Below are positions 11,715-47,945 of a stretch of 64,000 bases of DNA, one piece after another. The position numbers and the translations under genes were made by a program. Position 1 is the first letter of the stretch; every line of letters starts with the position of its first letter. The notes below the pieces were generated by a model. The model was not told the DNA's origin, searched no databases, and worked only from the letters and a program-made list of their open reading frames with translations. Source of the DNA: Akkermansia sp. RCC_12PD (GTDB lineage: Bacteria; Verrucomicrobiota; Verrucomicrobiia; Verrucomicrobiales; Akkermansiaceae); assembly GCF_036417355.1 (NCBI RefSeq), contig NZ_CP143889.1:2790001-2854000 (forward strand), read 5' to 3'.

Positions 11715-11743
11715 TTGTAACTCCAGCACTCCTCACCTATATT
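11715..11743 (+). promoter_or_regulatory. Sigma-70-type promoter for the candidate small RNA
   Basis: TTGTAA (11715-11720) and TATATT (11738-11743) are separated by exactly 17 bases. Transcription would start near 11750. No coding start follows for about 190 bases, and a strong terminator lies at 11820-11857. Confidence 0.7.
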
Positions 11744-11749
11744 GCGTTT

Positions 11750-11857
11750 CGAGCAGGTGAGCGCTCGTTAAAAAAGCTCTCTGGGTTCGCAAGGACCCAG
11801 TTTCATAGGGTAGTTGGGGCGCCCCGGTCGTTTTACGACCGGGGCGACTTTCTTTTT
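11750..11857 (+). ncRNA. Candidate structured small RNA, about 105 nt
   Basis: Between the promoter and a perfect terminator the sequence folds into consecutive hairpins: CGAGC (11750-11754) with GCTCG (about 11763-11768), then CTGGGT with ACCCAG around the loop TCGCAAGG (about 11779-11800), a single-stranded TTTCATAGGGTAGTT, and the terminator stem. It contains no open frame of note. It lacks the conserved SRP-RNA apical motif and does not resemble 6S RNA, tmRNA or a tRNA. The downstream gene encodes an RNA-binding KH protein. An attenuating leader for that gene is the main alternative to an independent small RNA. Confidence 0.55.
11820..11857 (+). terminator. Strong intrinsic terminator of the small RNA
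   Basis: CGCCCCGGTCG (11820-11830) pairs perfectly with CGACCGGGGCG (11836-11846) around a five-base loop, followed by ACTTTCTTTTT. Confidence 0.9.
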
Positions 11858-11936: not shown

Positions 11937-12218
11937 ATGCACCCTGCCGTAGAACAAATCCGCCAATACCTGCAACTGATTGCCCTTCAATTTGTCCAAC
12001 ATCCGGAACAGGCGGAGTTGCGCGTTGCCGAATCCCCCCAGGGCGACGCCGTGCGCTTCCGGCTGATTTTGGAAAAGACGGATGTGGCCCGCATCATCGG
12101 GCGCAACGGCATGACCGCTTCCGCCATCCGCTCTCTGGCCAAGGCGGCAGGGGAGAAGAACGGCATCAAGGTCATCGTGCACATGCTTTCCCATGAGGAA
12201 GCCGCCGAACAGGCCTGA
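11937..12218 (+). CDS. KH-domain RNA-binding protein, KhpA-like
   Basis: This 93-residue protein has the length and layout of KhpA/YlqC. The single KH domain includes RLILEKTDVARIIGRNGMTA (GxxG loop IIGRNG) and the following helix AIRSLAKAAGEKNGIKVIV. KhpA binds RNA, usually as a heterodimer with KhpB/Jag, and affects cell-wall synthesis and small-RNA stability. The partner is not in this window. The gene follows a candidate small RNA by 80 bases and ends at a terminator. Confidence 0.8.
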   Translation: MHPAVEQIRQYLQLIALQFVQHPEQAELRVAESPQGDAVRFRLILEKTDVARIIGRNGMTASAIRSLAKAAGEKNGIKVIVHMLSHEEAAEQA

Positions 12219-12313: not shown

Positions 12314-14782
12314 CTATAGCTCCACGTCCAGCACCAGGGCCAGCAGATTGAAGGGACCCGGTTTCTCCACACGGAGGGCGAACGCAGCCTGTTCATCCGT
12401 ACCGTAGTTGTGGGTGAGCCTGACATAACCGGAGTACGGAGCCTCCGCTCCATATCTGCCGGGCTGGAAGTGCCGCCACGCGCCGGGAGCCCCCGTGCCG
12501 TACAGGAATTGCAGGGAGCTTTCATGCAGAAGCGCCCTGGCGCCCAGTTGTTTTTTCAGCCTGCCGAGCGTCTCCAGACTTTCAAGGGGCATCGTTCTCA
12601 CCTCGGCCGGGGCGGCCATCCCTACCCTGACGGTTTCCCCTTCCCTGTTTTCCGGGCACAGCGCATTCCCTTCCCCGTCTATCAGGATGGAGGAGCAGGA
12701 GCCGTTCCCGTCCATCAGGACCGCTTCGCATCCGGCCAGATGCCGGAGCCCGCCAAGGCGGCCATCCCGGATGACTGCCTCCATGCAGGCGTCCAGATAT
12801 TCGTTGCCTTCCGCCATGCATTCCACCGTGATGCACGCATGTTCTCCCTCTCCCCGTGCCACGGTGAACCAGACTTCCTCATCCTGCGTGTTCCCGGAAC
12901 CCCGCAGGGAGGCCACGGACAGAATGCGGCCGTGCTCCAGGCGGTGGGCATGCCACGCCACGATGTTCTGTTCCCTGTTCAGGGTCATGCAGACCGCGCT
13001 GCCGTCCTTCAGCACGCACCAGACGTGAAATGCCGTGCTGCGCTGAATGGTCCAGTCCACAATGCCCTCCGTCAGAAGATGGTCGGAAAGAAGGCTCACG
13101 TCCCGCGTGAGAAAGCCGTCCGCCTCCAGGGAATAAAAAAACTCCCGCACCTTCCTGCCCCCCTGCTGGACGAACAGCAGGCTGTTTTCTACGGTCAGCG
13201 CGTCCAGCAGGGAGGAGCCCACGCCGGAATGGCGTTCGAATTCCGCATTATTTGCATTGATTCCCGTGGAGTCGGACGCCCGGAGCCGCCATTCCCCTTC
13301 GCTGGTGCCGATCATCAGGCCTCGAAGGGAGGATATCCACGCGATTCTGTTCTGCTGGGAGGCCGCCATGGTCAGAATCATGGGGGAGTCTGCCGGTATG
13401 CCGGGAATAAATGAGGAAAAGTCATCCACCCTGCTGGCCCACAGGGTCTGCGGCTGGCCCGGAGTGCTGCCGAACCAGAGGCGTCCCTGGGAAAATTCAA
13501 TGGTGCACGGGTAGCCGTTCCTGATCCCGAAGGCCCCAAAGGACCAGTCGCTGGTATCATAGTCGTACAGCATGCGGCCCGGCATGTGCAGGGCGTTGCG
13601 CACATGCACGCACCGCGGGGAAACATACTCCTCCACCACGAATTCATGGTCGTATGAACAGGATTCCGACCGCAGTTCCGGAATTCCCGTGGAAGAGCCG
13701 TTTTTATAGGACATCAGCCGGAGGGTGTAGAAGGAGAAACCTTCTTCATTACCGCTCAGGGCGAAGTTGTTCCTGAATCCCTCCTTCTGGTAGAAGCTCT
13801 TGACGGAGTGCCAGACGAGGGAGGGCTCATTGGGCAGGTAGTTGGAGCCGTCCAGGTACGCCCGGCGCACCTCCCATTCCGCGTCCCATGTTCCGGTGGT
13901 TTCCACCGTCCATGCTCCGCTGACGAACGTGTATGTGCAGGCATCCGCGCCTTTTTCAAAGAAGGAGGTGTACTGTTCCGGAGAATTCTTCCCCGCCACA
14001 TAGTCCACATCCTTCCTGAACGGGCGGATGCAGGTGTAGGCATTCCGCCATCCGTTTTTCCCGTCCATGGAAAAGGTGCCTCCCTTGTAGAAGTTCTGGT
14101 TCAGCGTCGCGGTATGGAACAGGGGCATCTGGTCGGCGCGGGCGAAACCTTCATCGTGCCTTCTGGTGATGCGAATGTGTTCCGTGCCCGCCATCTCCGG
14201 GGTGAATACGTCTTCATCCGCCGTCACCACCAGCTTGTTCCCGTCCGCGGAAGAGAACACCCGGTATTCGATCTTCACGGAGTTGAGCAGGGAGCTTTCG
14301 TAAGGAATGCCGGAAAATTCCAGAGGCTTCAGCCGCCAGTCGTCGTCGGCATGGCGGGAGAGCGTCATGGGGGGAGTCTCCGGCTCCACGCAGTAAATCA
14401 CGTCGTTCAACTGCTGCATCCGGAGGTTCCTGACCTGCACGTCGCTCTTCCAGGGAGAGACGGTTTCCAGGACATTTCCCTCCGTATCCAGCAAGGGCGC
14501 GCCGTCCTTGAAGTAGCGGACGTAGCCGCGGCCCAGCTCCAGCATGAACTGGACGCCCGTGGAGTATTTGAAGGAAACCAGCCTCACCATGCCTTCCGTG
14601 CCGCCGGCACGGGCGACCAGGCGCGTGCCGGGCCTGCGCCTGATGCCGCCGAAGGGAGTGACCAGAAAATTCGTCAGGCGGGAGGCTCCGCGCGCCACGG
14701 GGTCCAGGTCCGCGCGGCCGGAAAGCCACGGACTTAATTCTCCCGCCGTGAAACTGAGCCGTTGTAATACTTGCTTTGCCAT
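12314..14782 (-). CDS. Orphan phage tail / stabilisation-type protein
   Basis: The 822-residue protein begins MAKQVLQRLSFTAGELSPWL and continues with SGRADLDPVARGASRLTNF, FGGIRRRPGTRLVAR, FKYSTGVQFMLELGRGYVRY and FKDG. This is the N-terminal pattern of the head-tail stabilisation / tail-hub proteins of podovirus-like phages (FSxGELSP, GG..RRPGT, phenylalanine-rich strands). The middle contains a beta-propeller-like section (SQGRLWFGST, LWASRVDDFSSF, RGLMIGTSEGEWRL). No terminase, capsid, portal or integrase genes flank it; its neighbours are core genes. It is intact over 2.5 kb with normal base composition, which suggests selection. The ATG at 14782 is preferred to 14821 because homology begins there, with a purine run (GGGGGGA) upstream. 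The family assignment is by motif only. Confidence 0.65.
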   Translation of the reverse strand: MAKQVLQRLSFTAGELSPWLSGRADLDPVARGASRLTNFLVTPFGGIRRRPGTRLVARAGGTEGMVRLVSFKYSTGVQFMLELGRGYVRYFKDGAPLLDTEGNVLETVSPWKSDVQVRNLRMQQLNDVIYCVEPETPPMTLSRHADDDWRLKPLEFSGIPYESSLLNSVKIEYRVFSSADGNKLVVTADEDVFTPEMAGTEHIRITRRHDEGFARADQMPLFHTATLNQNFYKGGTFSMDGKNGWRNAYTCIRPFRKDVDYVAGKNSPEQYTSFFEKGADACTYTFVSGAWTVETTGTWDAEWEVRRAYLDGSNYLPNEPSLVWHSVKSFYQKEGFRNNFALSGNEEGFSFYTLRLMSYKNGSSTGIPELRSESCSYDHEFVVEEYVSPRCVHVRNALHMPGRMLYDYDTSDWSFGAFGIRNGYPCTIEFSQGRLWFGSTPGQPQTLWASRVDDFSSFIPGIPADSPMILTMAASQQNRIAWISSLRGLMIGTSEGEWRLRASDSTGINANNAEFERHSGVGSSLLDALTVENSLLFVQQGGRKVREFFYSLEADGFLTRDVSLLSDHLLTEGIVDWTIQRSTAFHVWCVLKDGSAVCMTLNREQNIVAWHAHRLEHGRILSVASLRGSGNTQDEEVWFTVARGEGEHACITVECMAEGNEYLDACMEAVIRDGRLGGLRHLAGCEAVLMDGNGSCSSILIDGEGNALCPENREGETVRVGMAAPAEVRTMPLESLETLGRLKKQLGARALLHESSLQFLYGTGAPGAWRHFQPGRYGAEAPYSGYVRLTHNYGTDEQAAFALRVEKPGPFNLLALVLDVEL

Positions 14783-14857
14783 ATTCCCCCCACGGAAACA
14801 GGGAGGAAGAGGCGCGGTCAAGACGCCGGAAAGGTGCTGCCCCTTCCGGCACCATTT

Positions 14858-27447: not shown

Positions 27448-28503
27448 CTATTTCCCTCCGGCGGCCTCCGCGTATTCCTTATCCGTCACGGGGCCGCCCC
27501 AGATGGTTTTGTTGGAAGCGGCTTTAGGAGTAATGCCGATGTGGACGAATTCGCTGTCCGGAGCCGCTCCGTGCCAGTGCTCCGTATTTGCCGGGATTTC
27601 CACCACGCTGCCGGGCTCCAGGCGGCGCGCCTTCCTGCCGCGTTCCTGGTAATAGCCCGAGCCCTCCGTGCAGAACAGCACCTGCCCCACGGAATGGCTG
27701 TGCCAGTTGTTGCGCGTGCCGGGGGCAAAGGTGACGTTGTAGGCGGACATGTCGTAGTCCCTGTTGTCCACCATCATGGCCACCCAGGCCTTCCCGGTGA
27801 AATTGGCGGGGGCGGGATTGCCCTTCGGGAAAGGGTCGTCCCTTCCGGCGGAGCCGGAAATATTCAGGATGGCGTCCACCTGTTCGTCCGTCAGGCCGTT
27901 GTATTTGCCGATGCGGATGTGGGAGTTCAACTGGCTTTCCGTGCCCTTCATGGAGGCCAGAGCCGCAATGGTGGCAAGCTCCCGGGTTTTCCAGTCAAGA
28001 TTGTCGCGCCCGAAGATGTCGCCGAAGAGGTGGGCTTTCAGGAACTCGTCAATGGCCGGGGCAAACTGGAAAAGCTCGCCCTTGACCGGAGCGCCGCAGA
28101 GTTTTGTCTGGTTCTCCGTGCCGAATTCGATGCTCCTGCCAGCCGGAGGGGCTCCGGCTTCCGCACCCTCCCTGTCGTTGATGCCGCGCGCGGCGCGCTC
28201 CTTGGACAGCTCCATCAGGGAGCTCAAAGCGTTCAGGCTGCGGGGGAAACCGCAATAGGCATACATCTGGACGAGAACTTCCCTGATCTCGTTCAGGCTG
28301 AGTCCGGCGTCCAGCCCCGCGGCCAGGGCGGTTTTGAGTCCGTCCATGTCGCCGCGGGCGGTATGGGCGCTGATGGCGGCAATCTGCCGTTCCTTTGGCG
28401 ACAGGGCTTCCGTGCTGTTGTTCATGGTCTGTGCTTCCGTGTGGTTCATCAGGAAAAGGAGGGAACAGGCCGTTCCCAGAAGGATTCGTTTCATCAGGCG
28501 CAT
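27448..28503 (-). CDS. Exported carboxymuconolactone decarboxylase-cupin fusion
   Basis: This 351-residue protein has a signal peptide (ILLGTACSLLFLMNHTEA). It is followed by two carboxymuconolactone decarboxylase-like alpha-helical modules (about 35-115, with LSLNEIREVLVQMYAYCGFP; and about 135-220, with KTRELATIAALASMKGT) and a C-terminal cupin (about 255-330) with NNWHSHSVGQVLFCTEGSG and EIPANTEHWHGA. The first module has the CGFP cysteine but no CxxC pair, so a peroxidase of AhpD type is not assured. Its start overlaps the flavodoxin stop (TAATG), so the two are translationally coupled. Confidence 0.85.
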   Translation of the reverse strand: MRLMKRILLGTACSLLFLMNHTEAQTMNNSTEALSPKERQIAAISAHTARGDMDGLKTALAAGLDAGLSLNEIREVLVQMYAYCGFPRSLNALSSLMELSKERAARGINDREGAEAGAPPAGRSIEFGTENQTKLCGAPVKGELFQFAPAIDEFLKAHLFGDIFGRDNLDWKTRELATIAALASMKGTESQLNSHIRIGKYNGLTDEQVDAILNISGSAGRDDPFPKGNPAPANFTGKAWVAMMVDNRDYDMSAYNVTFAPGTRNNWHSHSVGQVLFCTEGSGYYQERGRKARRLEPGSVVEIPANTEHWHGAAPDSEFVHIGITPKAASNKTIWGGPVTDKEYAEAAGGK

Positions 28504-47585: not shown

Positions 47586-47945
47586 GGGGGCGCCATGGTT
47601 TCGACTGGAAGTCTGCGGTGCTGGCTGCATGTGAAGGTTAATCGGCTGGCCTTCTAAAAAGCCGATTAGAAAAATAAATGCAGAGTCTAACGACCTTGCT
47701 CTGGCTGCCTAATTAGTTCAGCCGCGTCAGAACCTCAACGCCTGCTAGAGGGAACGACGAAGATTTAGCAGGCTGGTGCAATGCGGGGTTGCCGCGCAAC
47801 GCACGAGACTTCCACAGGCAACTAGCGAGCCTGCCTAGTTGGCGCATGACGAAGCAGCCGTGAAAGCAGCAACATGCGTCTGAACATGGAGATGCCGGTA
47901 TCAACGGCCTTCAGGACACGGGTTCGACTCCCGTCGCCTCCACCA
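47586..47945 (+). ncRNA. ssrA: Transfer-messenger RNA
   Basis: The 360-base gene begins GGGGGCG and ends CGCCTCCACCA, which form the tRNA-like acceptor, with the alanyl G-U pair and GGTTCGACTCCC arm near the 3' end. The 5' part has the conserved CATGGTTTCGACTGG. The tag reading frame is 47680-47712: GCA resume codon, then peptide AESNDLALAA and TAA. The ALAA end marks it for ClpXP-type proteases. tmRNA frees stalled ribosomes and tags their products. Its 3' end is a classic integration site, and accessory genes follow directly. Confidence 0.96.

Follow-up and report, generated by a model that had tools for sequence, protein, structure and literature searches.

A predicted family of pseudoknotted small RNA genes in Akkermansia and a second RNA type with a similar 3' module

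The RNA locus and its neighbourhood

The window analysed here is a stretch of 64,000 nucleotides (nt) from Akkermansia sp. RCC_12PD (contig NZ_CP143889.1, positions 2,790,001 to 2,854,000 of the forward strand), in which a preliminary description made from the letters alone had placed a free-standing small RNA (sRNA) gene directly before a KhpA-like gene. By sequence comparison the candidate is real: positions 11744 to 11857 are predicted to encode a free-standing structured RNA, here called F1, which belongs to a conserved family of structured RNA genes with promoter and terminator signals of their own; the step from sequence to function is one that we infer throughout. The features of the locus are collected in Table 1.

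Table 1. Features of the F1 locus, of its surroundings and of the second RNA type, F2 (window positions unless stated otherwise; aa, amino acids)
Feature	Position	Strand	Remarks
Sigma70-type promoter	-35 TTGTAA 11715-11720; 17 nt; -10 TATATT 11738-11743	+	9/12 consensus matches
F1 RNA gene (predicted)	11744-11857	+	
Hairpin P1	11750-11767	+	CGAGC 11750-11754, 8-nt loop, GCUCG 11763-11767; paired in 93.0% of cells; UA to AU and CG to GC swaps
Pseudoknot helix P2	11756-11762 with 11776-11782	+	GAGC/GCUC, one U-U mismatch, GG/CU
A-rich linker UUAAAAAA	11768-11775	+	between the two P2 strands
Hairpin P3	11781-11800	+	GCAA loop 11789-11792; paired in 90.4% of cells; optional
Near-invariant stretch UUCAUAGGGUAGUUGGG	11802-11818	+	between folded 5' half and terminator; proposed seed
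Terminator hairpin P4	11820-11846	+	12-bp stem; paired in 87.7% of cells; 9/11 pairs changed on both sides
Terminator tail ACUUUCUUUUU	11847-11857	+	
khpA	11937-12218	+	KH domain, 93 aa; PF13083, E=1.3e-14; neighbour, not part of the RNA gene
Phage tail protein gene	12314-14821	-	835 aa; phrog_376, E=4.5e-129
F2 copies, own genome (contig C1 positions)	2767495-2767617, 144468-144594, 3074651-3074780, 646699-646823		found with the F2 covariance model
F2 loci in other sequences			L116, L117, L118, L119, L120, L122, L124

The structured stretch of F1 measures about 105 nt, and the 113-nt strand folds with an energy of -50.7 kcal/mol (z = -4.5), a value that none of 200 shuffles equalled. The boxes that had been called a good promoter are in place, but taken by themselves are weak evidence and no more than suggestive, as 8 kb contained five promoter-like sites where shuffles gave 2.2 ± 1.6. 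The same 8 kb showed no excess of terminator-like sites (nine, compared to 9.6 in shuffles); the terminator described as perfect does have a 12-bp stem, but the word is an overstatement because the tail following it is ACTTTCTTTTT. Across relatives, the best promoter-like box pair was located at a near-identical place in 49 of 50 F1 loci, the exception being the phage-borne locus L068, and scored at least 9/12 in 43 of the 50, with a mean of 9.8 vs. 7.5 in base shuffles. Single-base shuffles served as controls for these boxes and for the TGAAC box of F2 described below. In most copies the promoter would be of the housekeeping type, and a chance origin of F1 is excluded because the RNA is conserved in relatives. 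No conserved reading frame was detected by inspection of 49 loci, which upholds the earlier statement that the gene lacks a coding frame; a frame starting from the UUG of the near-invariant stretch recurs because the letters of that stretch are constant, but it continues differently in different neighbour groups.

The neighbours also vary, which, together with the near-constant promoter-like boxes and the terminator, bears out the description of the gene as free-standing. The gene upstream of F1 in the window encodes a PUA/SAM methyltransferase, while khpA starts about 80 nt past the F1 tail on the same strand. The position of F1 directly before a KhpA-like gene therefore stands for the window, but the link does not extend to the family: khpA follows within 1 kb in only 10 of 47 F1 loci, all of which belong to a single neighbour group made up of A. 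muciniphila-like genomes and UBA7331. The other loci have unrelated genes beside them, including, as identified by reading the sequences, dnaE, those for asparaginyl- and glutaminyl-tRNA synthetase, trpB and birA, and no neighbour is constant among 50 loci. By immediate neighbours these 50 loci fell into 23 groups, nine with at least two loci and 14 single, which is an upper estimate since the longest-frame rule on which the groups rest, and contig ends that hide some neighbours, inflate the count. The phage tail protein gene in the window lies between khpA and a methyltransferase gene; it is kept beside khpA in related genomes and is perhaps domesticated.

Fold, conservation and distribution of F1

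The fold of F1 is best described, from the alignment, as a predicted H-type pseudoknot, an optional capped hairpin, a near-invariant stretch of 17 nt and a terminator. The two hairpins noted earlier need correcting: the loop of P1 pairs downstream to form the pseudoknot, and P3 is capped by a GNRA loop. All four helices covary within Akkermansia, in line with the expectation that the stems would be conserved in relatives. The whole-fold covariation score, pseudoknot included, was 0.490 as compared to 0.235 ± 0.012 in shuffles (0/500 as high) and at most 0.172 when the pairing was slid; the shuffles ignore relatedness, whereas the slid control does not. These scores and the pair counts come from a MAFFT alignment (A3) of 40 sequences, from which L067 and L068 were left out because MAFFT misaligned them, and in the A. 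muciniphila-like rows shifts of the register by one base depress the counts for P3 and P4.

P2, the helix that makes the pseudoknot, was paired in 95.8% of cells, with five of six pairs changed on both sides and one pair position occurring as CG, GC, UA and GU. At least five contiguous P2 pairs could be formed in 36 of 46 distinct F1 RNAs (shuffle rate 0.16), while P1 was present in 46 of 46 under a permissive rule that had no control. In A. muciniphila-like RNAs, that of the window included, P2 consists of four pairs, a U-U mismatch and two more pairs, and in UBA7331 of three contiguous pairs. Its outer two pairs share bases with P3, a hairpin that L068, L084 and L085, the short forms, do not have; therefore, the core of F1 comprises P1-P2, the constant stretch and the terminator. 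A GACU 3' of the stem is constant in A3 and permits a partial extra helix, GGGUAGU/ACUUCC, which hardly varies and is for that reason beyond covariation testing.

The 17-mer was exact in 15/15 loci found by BLAST and in 42/45 found by covariance model, i.e., in 57/60 loci found without demanding it, a tally that counts some genomes twice. The exceptions were L084 and L085, with one changed base each, and L086 with five. In loci retrieved by the exact 17-mer, phage copies included, this exactness is so by construction.

F1 was found by BLAST in 15 of 39 genomes, its own included. A 17-mer search with one genome per species yielded 52 loci, 44 of which carried the rest of the RNA: 43 on Akkermansia, Akkermansiaceae or uncultured-bacterium contigs, plus L067. 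The other eight (L018, L026, L033, L039, L044, L056, L059 and L061), without structure and at 10-20 bits with the covariance model R1, were set aside as chance; L027 is cut at a contig end. R1, built from 40 distinct F1 sequences, detected F1 in 55 of 76 Akkermansia genomes, with one copy each (42 of 55 among the better assemblies); two of the 55 matches are weak, at 33.6 bits in genome G224 and 25.5 bits in G740. Under stricter filters, 17 of 387 Verrucomicrobiota genomes matched, all of them Akkermansia, and no F1 was found in the other 196 genera of that sample, contrary to the idea that a covariance search would find it conserved elsewhere in the phylum.

No Rfam 15 family reached its gathering score on the window F1 or on seven loci, short forms and phage copies included, in agreement with the earlier remark that the RNA matches none of the common structural RNAs. 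Gathering-level matches near F1 and F2 loci were tRNA and RNase P genes that lie next to the RNAs without covering them. Among matches with E<=10, the top sub-threshold score was that of Spot 42 (RF00021), 22.3 bits against a gathering score of 80, with a likeness mainly through the terminator, and membership was rejected. RNAs of the tmRNA or pistol kind, seemingly alike in H-type topology and A-rich linker, gave no cmscan match either, and the tmRNA of the genome is a separate gene at 47586-47945. A literature search by title and start of abstract turned up no description of F1 or of small RNAs made by Akkermansia; the Akkermansia passages in PMC10138442 and PMC11232669 are not on its own sRNA genes, and PMC4782308 names PRJEB9717, a public Cappable-seq data set from mouse caecum. 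On this basis F1, like F2, appears to be an undescribed RNA family.

A second RNA type and copies on phage contigs

F2 came to light as weak R1 matches in genomes without F1. A covariance model (R2) built from seven F2 sequences, with no F1 sequence among them, matched 72 of 76 Akkermansia genomes, with at least two matches in 48, although F1 loci, which R2 hits weakly, may account for part of the surplus. In the own genome R2 gave six matches, one being the F1 locus and two being weak; within the window, besides F1, it gave a single match at 27923-27990 (14.7 bits, E=0.1). In a sample of the order, 64 of 336 genomes matched, 61 of them in Akkermansia, and the three outside the genus (29-32 bits) were judged by eye to be chance. 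F2 likewise reached the gathering score of no Rfam family. One F2 copy (L120:1003-1378) is placed about 100 bases from an RNase P RNA gene. The weak F1 match of G224 is L086, a strongly changed and perhaps decaying copy in a genome with four F2-model matches.

The structure of F2 covaries (0.814 vs. 0.237 in shuffles, with an alignment fitted to its own model) and its 5' fold differs from that of F1. Its 5' loop contains GAGAGAG in 48 of 54 copies, and the loop sequence GGAGAGAGC is exact in 40 of the 54, while TTTCATAGGTAGTAAGTTG is exact in 32. In 40 of 53 copies a TGAAC precedes the model start by 27-31 nt, as compared to 3.1 in shuffles, followed in 27 copies by G-N-C after 13-19 nt (a loose test with no control); we take these upstream boxes to resemble promoters of extracytoplasmic function (ECF) sigma factors. 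R2 found the window F1 at 33.6 bits (E=1.5e-6 in 209 kb) via AGUUUCAUAGG, AGUU and the terminator, and as the model held no F1 sequence, F1 and F2 therefore share a 3' module on different scaffolds and behind different promoters. A pairing between an F1 P2 strand and the loop of F2 (GCUCUCU/AGAGAGC), noticed by eye in this clade, is not kept in most species and was dropped. Weak F2-model matches at L223 (contig C126) and L231 (contig C6), both of genome G043, may represent a third RNA type, in which a short hairpin is combined with GUUUCAUUU and the same kind of terminator.

F1 was also present on phage contigs, both copies having been retrieved by the exact 17-mer. One carrier is an IMG/VR phage, represented by L068 and L069 with the same short F1. 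Next to the RNA are a terminase gene, for which Verrucomicrobia phage P8625 gave the top database match (24% identity), and a gene that matches ParB-like families among others. L067 (JAGBVI010000001.1) is a contig of 375,692 bases filed as a Paludibacteraceae metagenome-assembled genome, but judged by its genes it looks like a T4-like jumbo phage. A major head protein of the gp23 type is encoded roughly 14 kb away from the RNA; close to one end of the contig are genes for a T4-like portal protein and a family B DNA polymerase, and close to the opposite end is one for an SbcC-like nuclease subunit. The promoter of its RNA is TTGACA-17-TATAAT, and no F1 was found in the other 294 genomes of the order under which the contig is filed. 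Akkermansia is a possible host of both phages. Beyond L068 and L069, IMG/VR yielded only chance sites for F1 (15-mer and gapped pattern) and no F2, and phage and plasmid collections gave no real match.

In part of the L067 contig, which was examined as six pieces (L108-L113), TAG appears to be a sense codon. Frames of 1263, 1364, 922 and 683 aa span 11, 8, 8 and 9 TAG codons, respectively, dihydrofolate reductase grows from 115 to 191 aa when TAG is read through, and with TAG read as glutamine the coding cover increases in two pieces, in one from 0.69 to 0.92 and in the other from 0.78 to 0.90. As counter-evidence, one end piece gains nothing; with TAA read as glutamine, four of the six pieces gain at least as much cover, but with shorter frames in L108, L111, L112 and L113. 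No tRNA gene was detected in the six pieces or in L069, and hence no suppressor tRNA was seen there.

Proposed function and alternatives

We place slightly more than even confidence in F1 and F2 being trans-acting base-pairing sRNAs with one seed on two scaffolds, by analogy to Yfr1 and Yfr10. In common with such sRNAs, F1 has its own promoter and terminator signals, no conserved frame and no conserved neighbour in cis. It would be a single-copy trans-acting regulatory RNA, transcribed from a promoter of the housekeeping type up to a terminator of its own, in which the 5' pseudoknot would guard the 5' end and keep the molecule in shape, while UUUCAUAGGGUAGUUGGG, between the folded 5' half and the terminator, would act as the seed pairing with mRNAs. 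Pairing would probably take place around start codons, because UUUCAU complements AUGAAA, and may change the translation or decay of the mRNAs. F2, with its ECF-type promoters and a very similar stretch on a different scaffold, would address the same or overlapping targets under stress, and phages with a copy would exploit the circuit of their host.

Sigma-E dependent sRNAs of enterobacteria, e.g., MicA and RybB, are stress sRNAs made from an ECF-type promoter. F2 is like them in this respect, F1 differs by its housekeeping-type promoter, and no Rfam match to them was found. One motif on two scaffolds is a design common to F1/F2 and to cyanobacterial Yfr1/Yfr10: according to PMC6778093 the Yfr1 motif has a UCCU core, and Yfr10 carries this motif on a scaffold whose structure and synteny are conserved to a lesser degree, and becomes more abundant in darkness. 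The Akkermansia RNAs differ in motif (here UUCAUAGGGUAGUUGGG, without the UCCU core), phylum and fold; F1 adds a covarying pseudoknot, and F2 has an ECF-type promoter and, in many genomes, more than one copy. RydC of enterobacteria, as described in PMC4337610, needs its pseudoknot and Hfq for stability, and has a U-rich 3' end and a seed at the 5' end. F1 shares the U-rich 3' end and a pseudoknot, supported by covariation, whereas its candidate seed lies 3' of the pseudoknot.

Several observations weigh against pairing through a seed. Seventeen constant bases exceed what most seeds need, positions 11808-11814 within the stretch may pair partly with the 3' tail, and no P2 is evident in L067. 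An R1 match is lacking in 21 of 76 Akkermansia genomes, and in 13 of 55 better ones. Among the matches listed for the own genome, the best complement to 14 motif bases has two mismatches, with no near-perfect mRNA complement, and 119 matches were listed vs. 202 for the reversed pattern; the list may be incomplete, since the RNA's own locus is absent from it although the complement is present there. Complementarity to the rRNA operon and tmRNA was not above that of shuffled seeds, 27 and 22 of 40 shuffles being at least as good for F1, and 40 and 11 for F2. The difference in pairing between start regions and gene interiors of 98 genes was 0.55 kcal/mol for the F1 seed vs. 1.29 ± 0.51 for shuffled seeds, 0.12 vs. 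1.01 ± 0.29 for the F2 seed, and -0.42 vs. 0.16 ± 0.32 for UUUCAUAGG. This leans weakly in the right direction, but any seed with CAU would do the same, as the signal arises in part because CAU matches AUG.

The strongest rival to a seed is a docking site: through the shared 3' stretch both RNA types would bind the same protein, which may be an sRNA chaperone such as KhpA/KhpB or some other RNA-binding protein, and the 5' parts would do the specific work. We regard this as rather unlikely, even though a very similar stretch stands directly before the terminator in two otherwise unrelated scaffolds, a place where chaperones bind in other bacteria, and a constancy longer than a seed needs and the lack of a complementary target among the listed own-genome matches also speak for it. 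Against it, khpA is not linked to F1 and the candidate protein partner is putative; moreover, the 5' loop of F2 is near-constant and the 5' part of F1 is mostly structure, and therefore little is left as a specific part. The 17-nt constancy, the housekeeping-type promoter, the single copy and the presence on phage contigs would also suit a structural or decoy RNA that, as 6S RNA does, binds or mimics a conserved machine (polymerase, ribosome or nuclease) without pairing. That explanation is unlikely in view of the lack of an Rfam structural RNA match and of complementarity to rRNA or tmRNA above shuffled seeds, and of the absence of F1 from the Akkermansia genomes counted above and from the rest of the phylum sample.

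It is very unlikely that the RNA is a mobile or phage element acquired by the genus and passively kept. The jumbo-phage contig, the other phage and the several chromosomal positions point that way, but one copy per genome, housekeeping neighbours on the chromosome, and a covarying structure with a conserved promoter are not expected of a passive passenger. That F1 acts in cis, as a leader or riboswitch for the gene that follows it (khpA in the window), is extremely improbable: the gene is close by on the same strand, and H-type pseudoknots with A-rich linkers occur in riboswitches too, yet no same-strand downstream gene is conserved, and in several loci the nearest long downstream frame is on the opposite strand. 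With neighbours that vary in this manner, the concern that F1 might be only the leader of the KH gene was rejected.

The finding of F1 on phage contigs points to a possible role of the module in infection. As a tentative picture, possible rather than probable, Akkermansia may have a genus-specific sRNA system unlike Hfq-type networks, in which a constitutive pseudoknotted F1 and several stress-sigma F2 RNAs carry one constant 3' module before the terminator, read by a new RNA chaperone or by common start-codon targets, and of which phages, including a TAG-recoded jumbo phage, would have captured a copy to steer or titrate the system in infection. With two structured families that covary, have promoter signals and share a module, post-transcriptional control becomes directly testable in a widely studied gut commensal.
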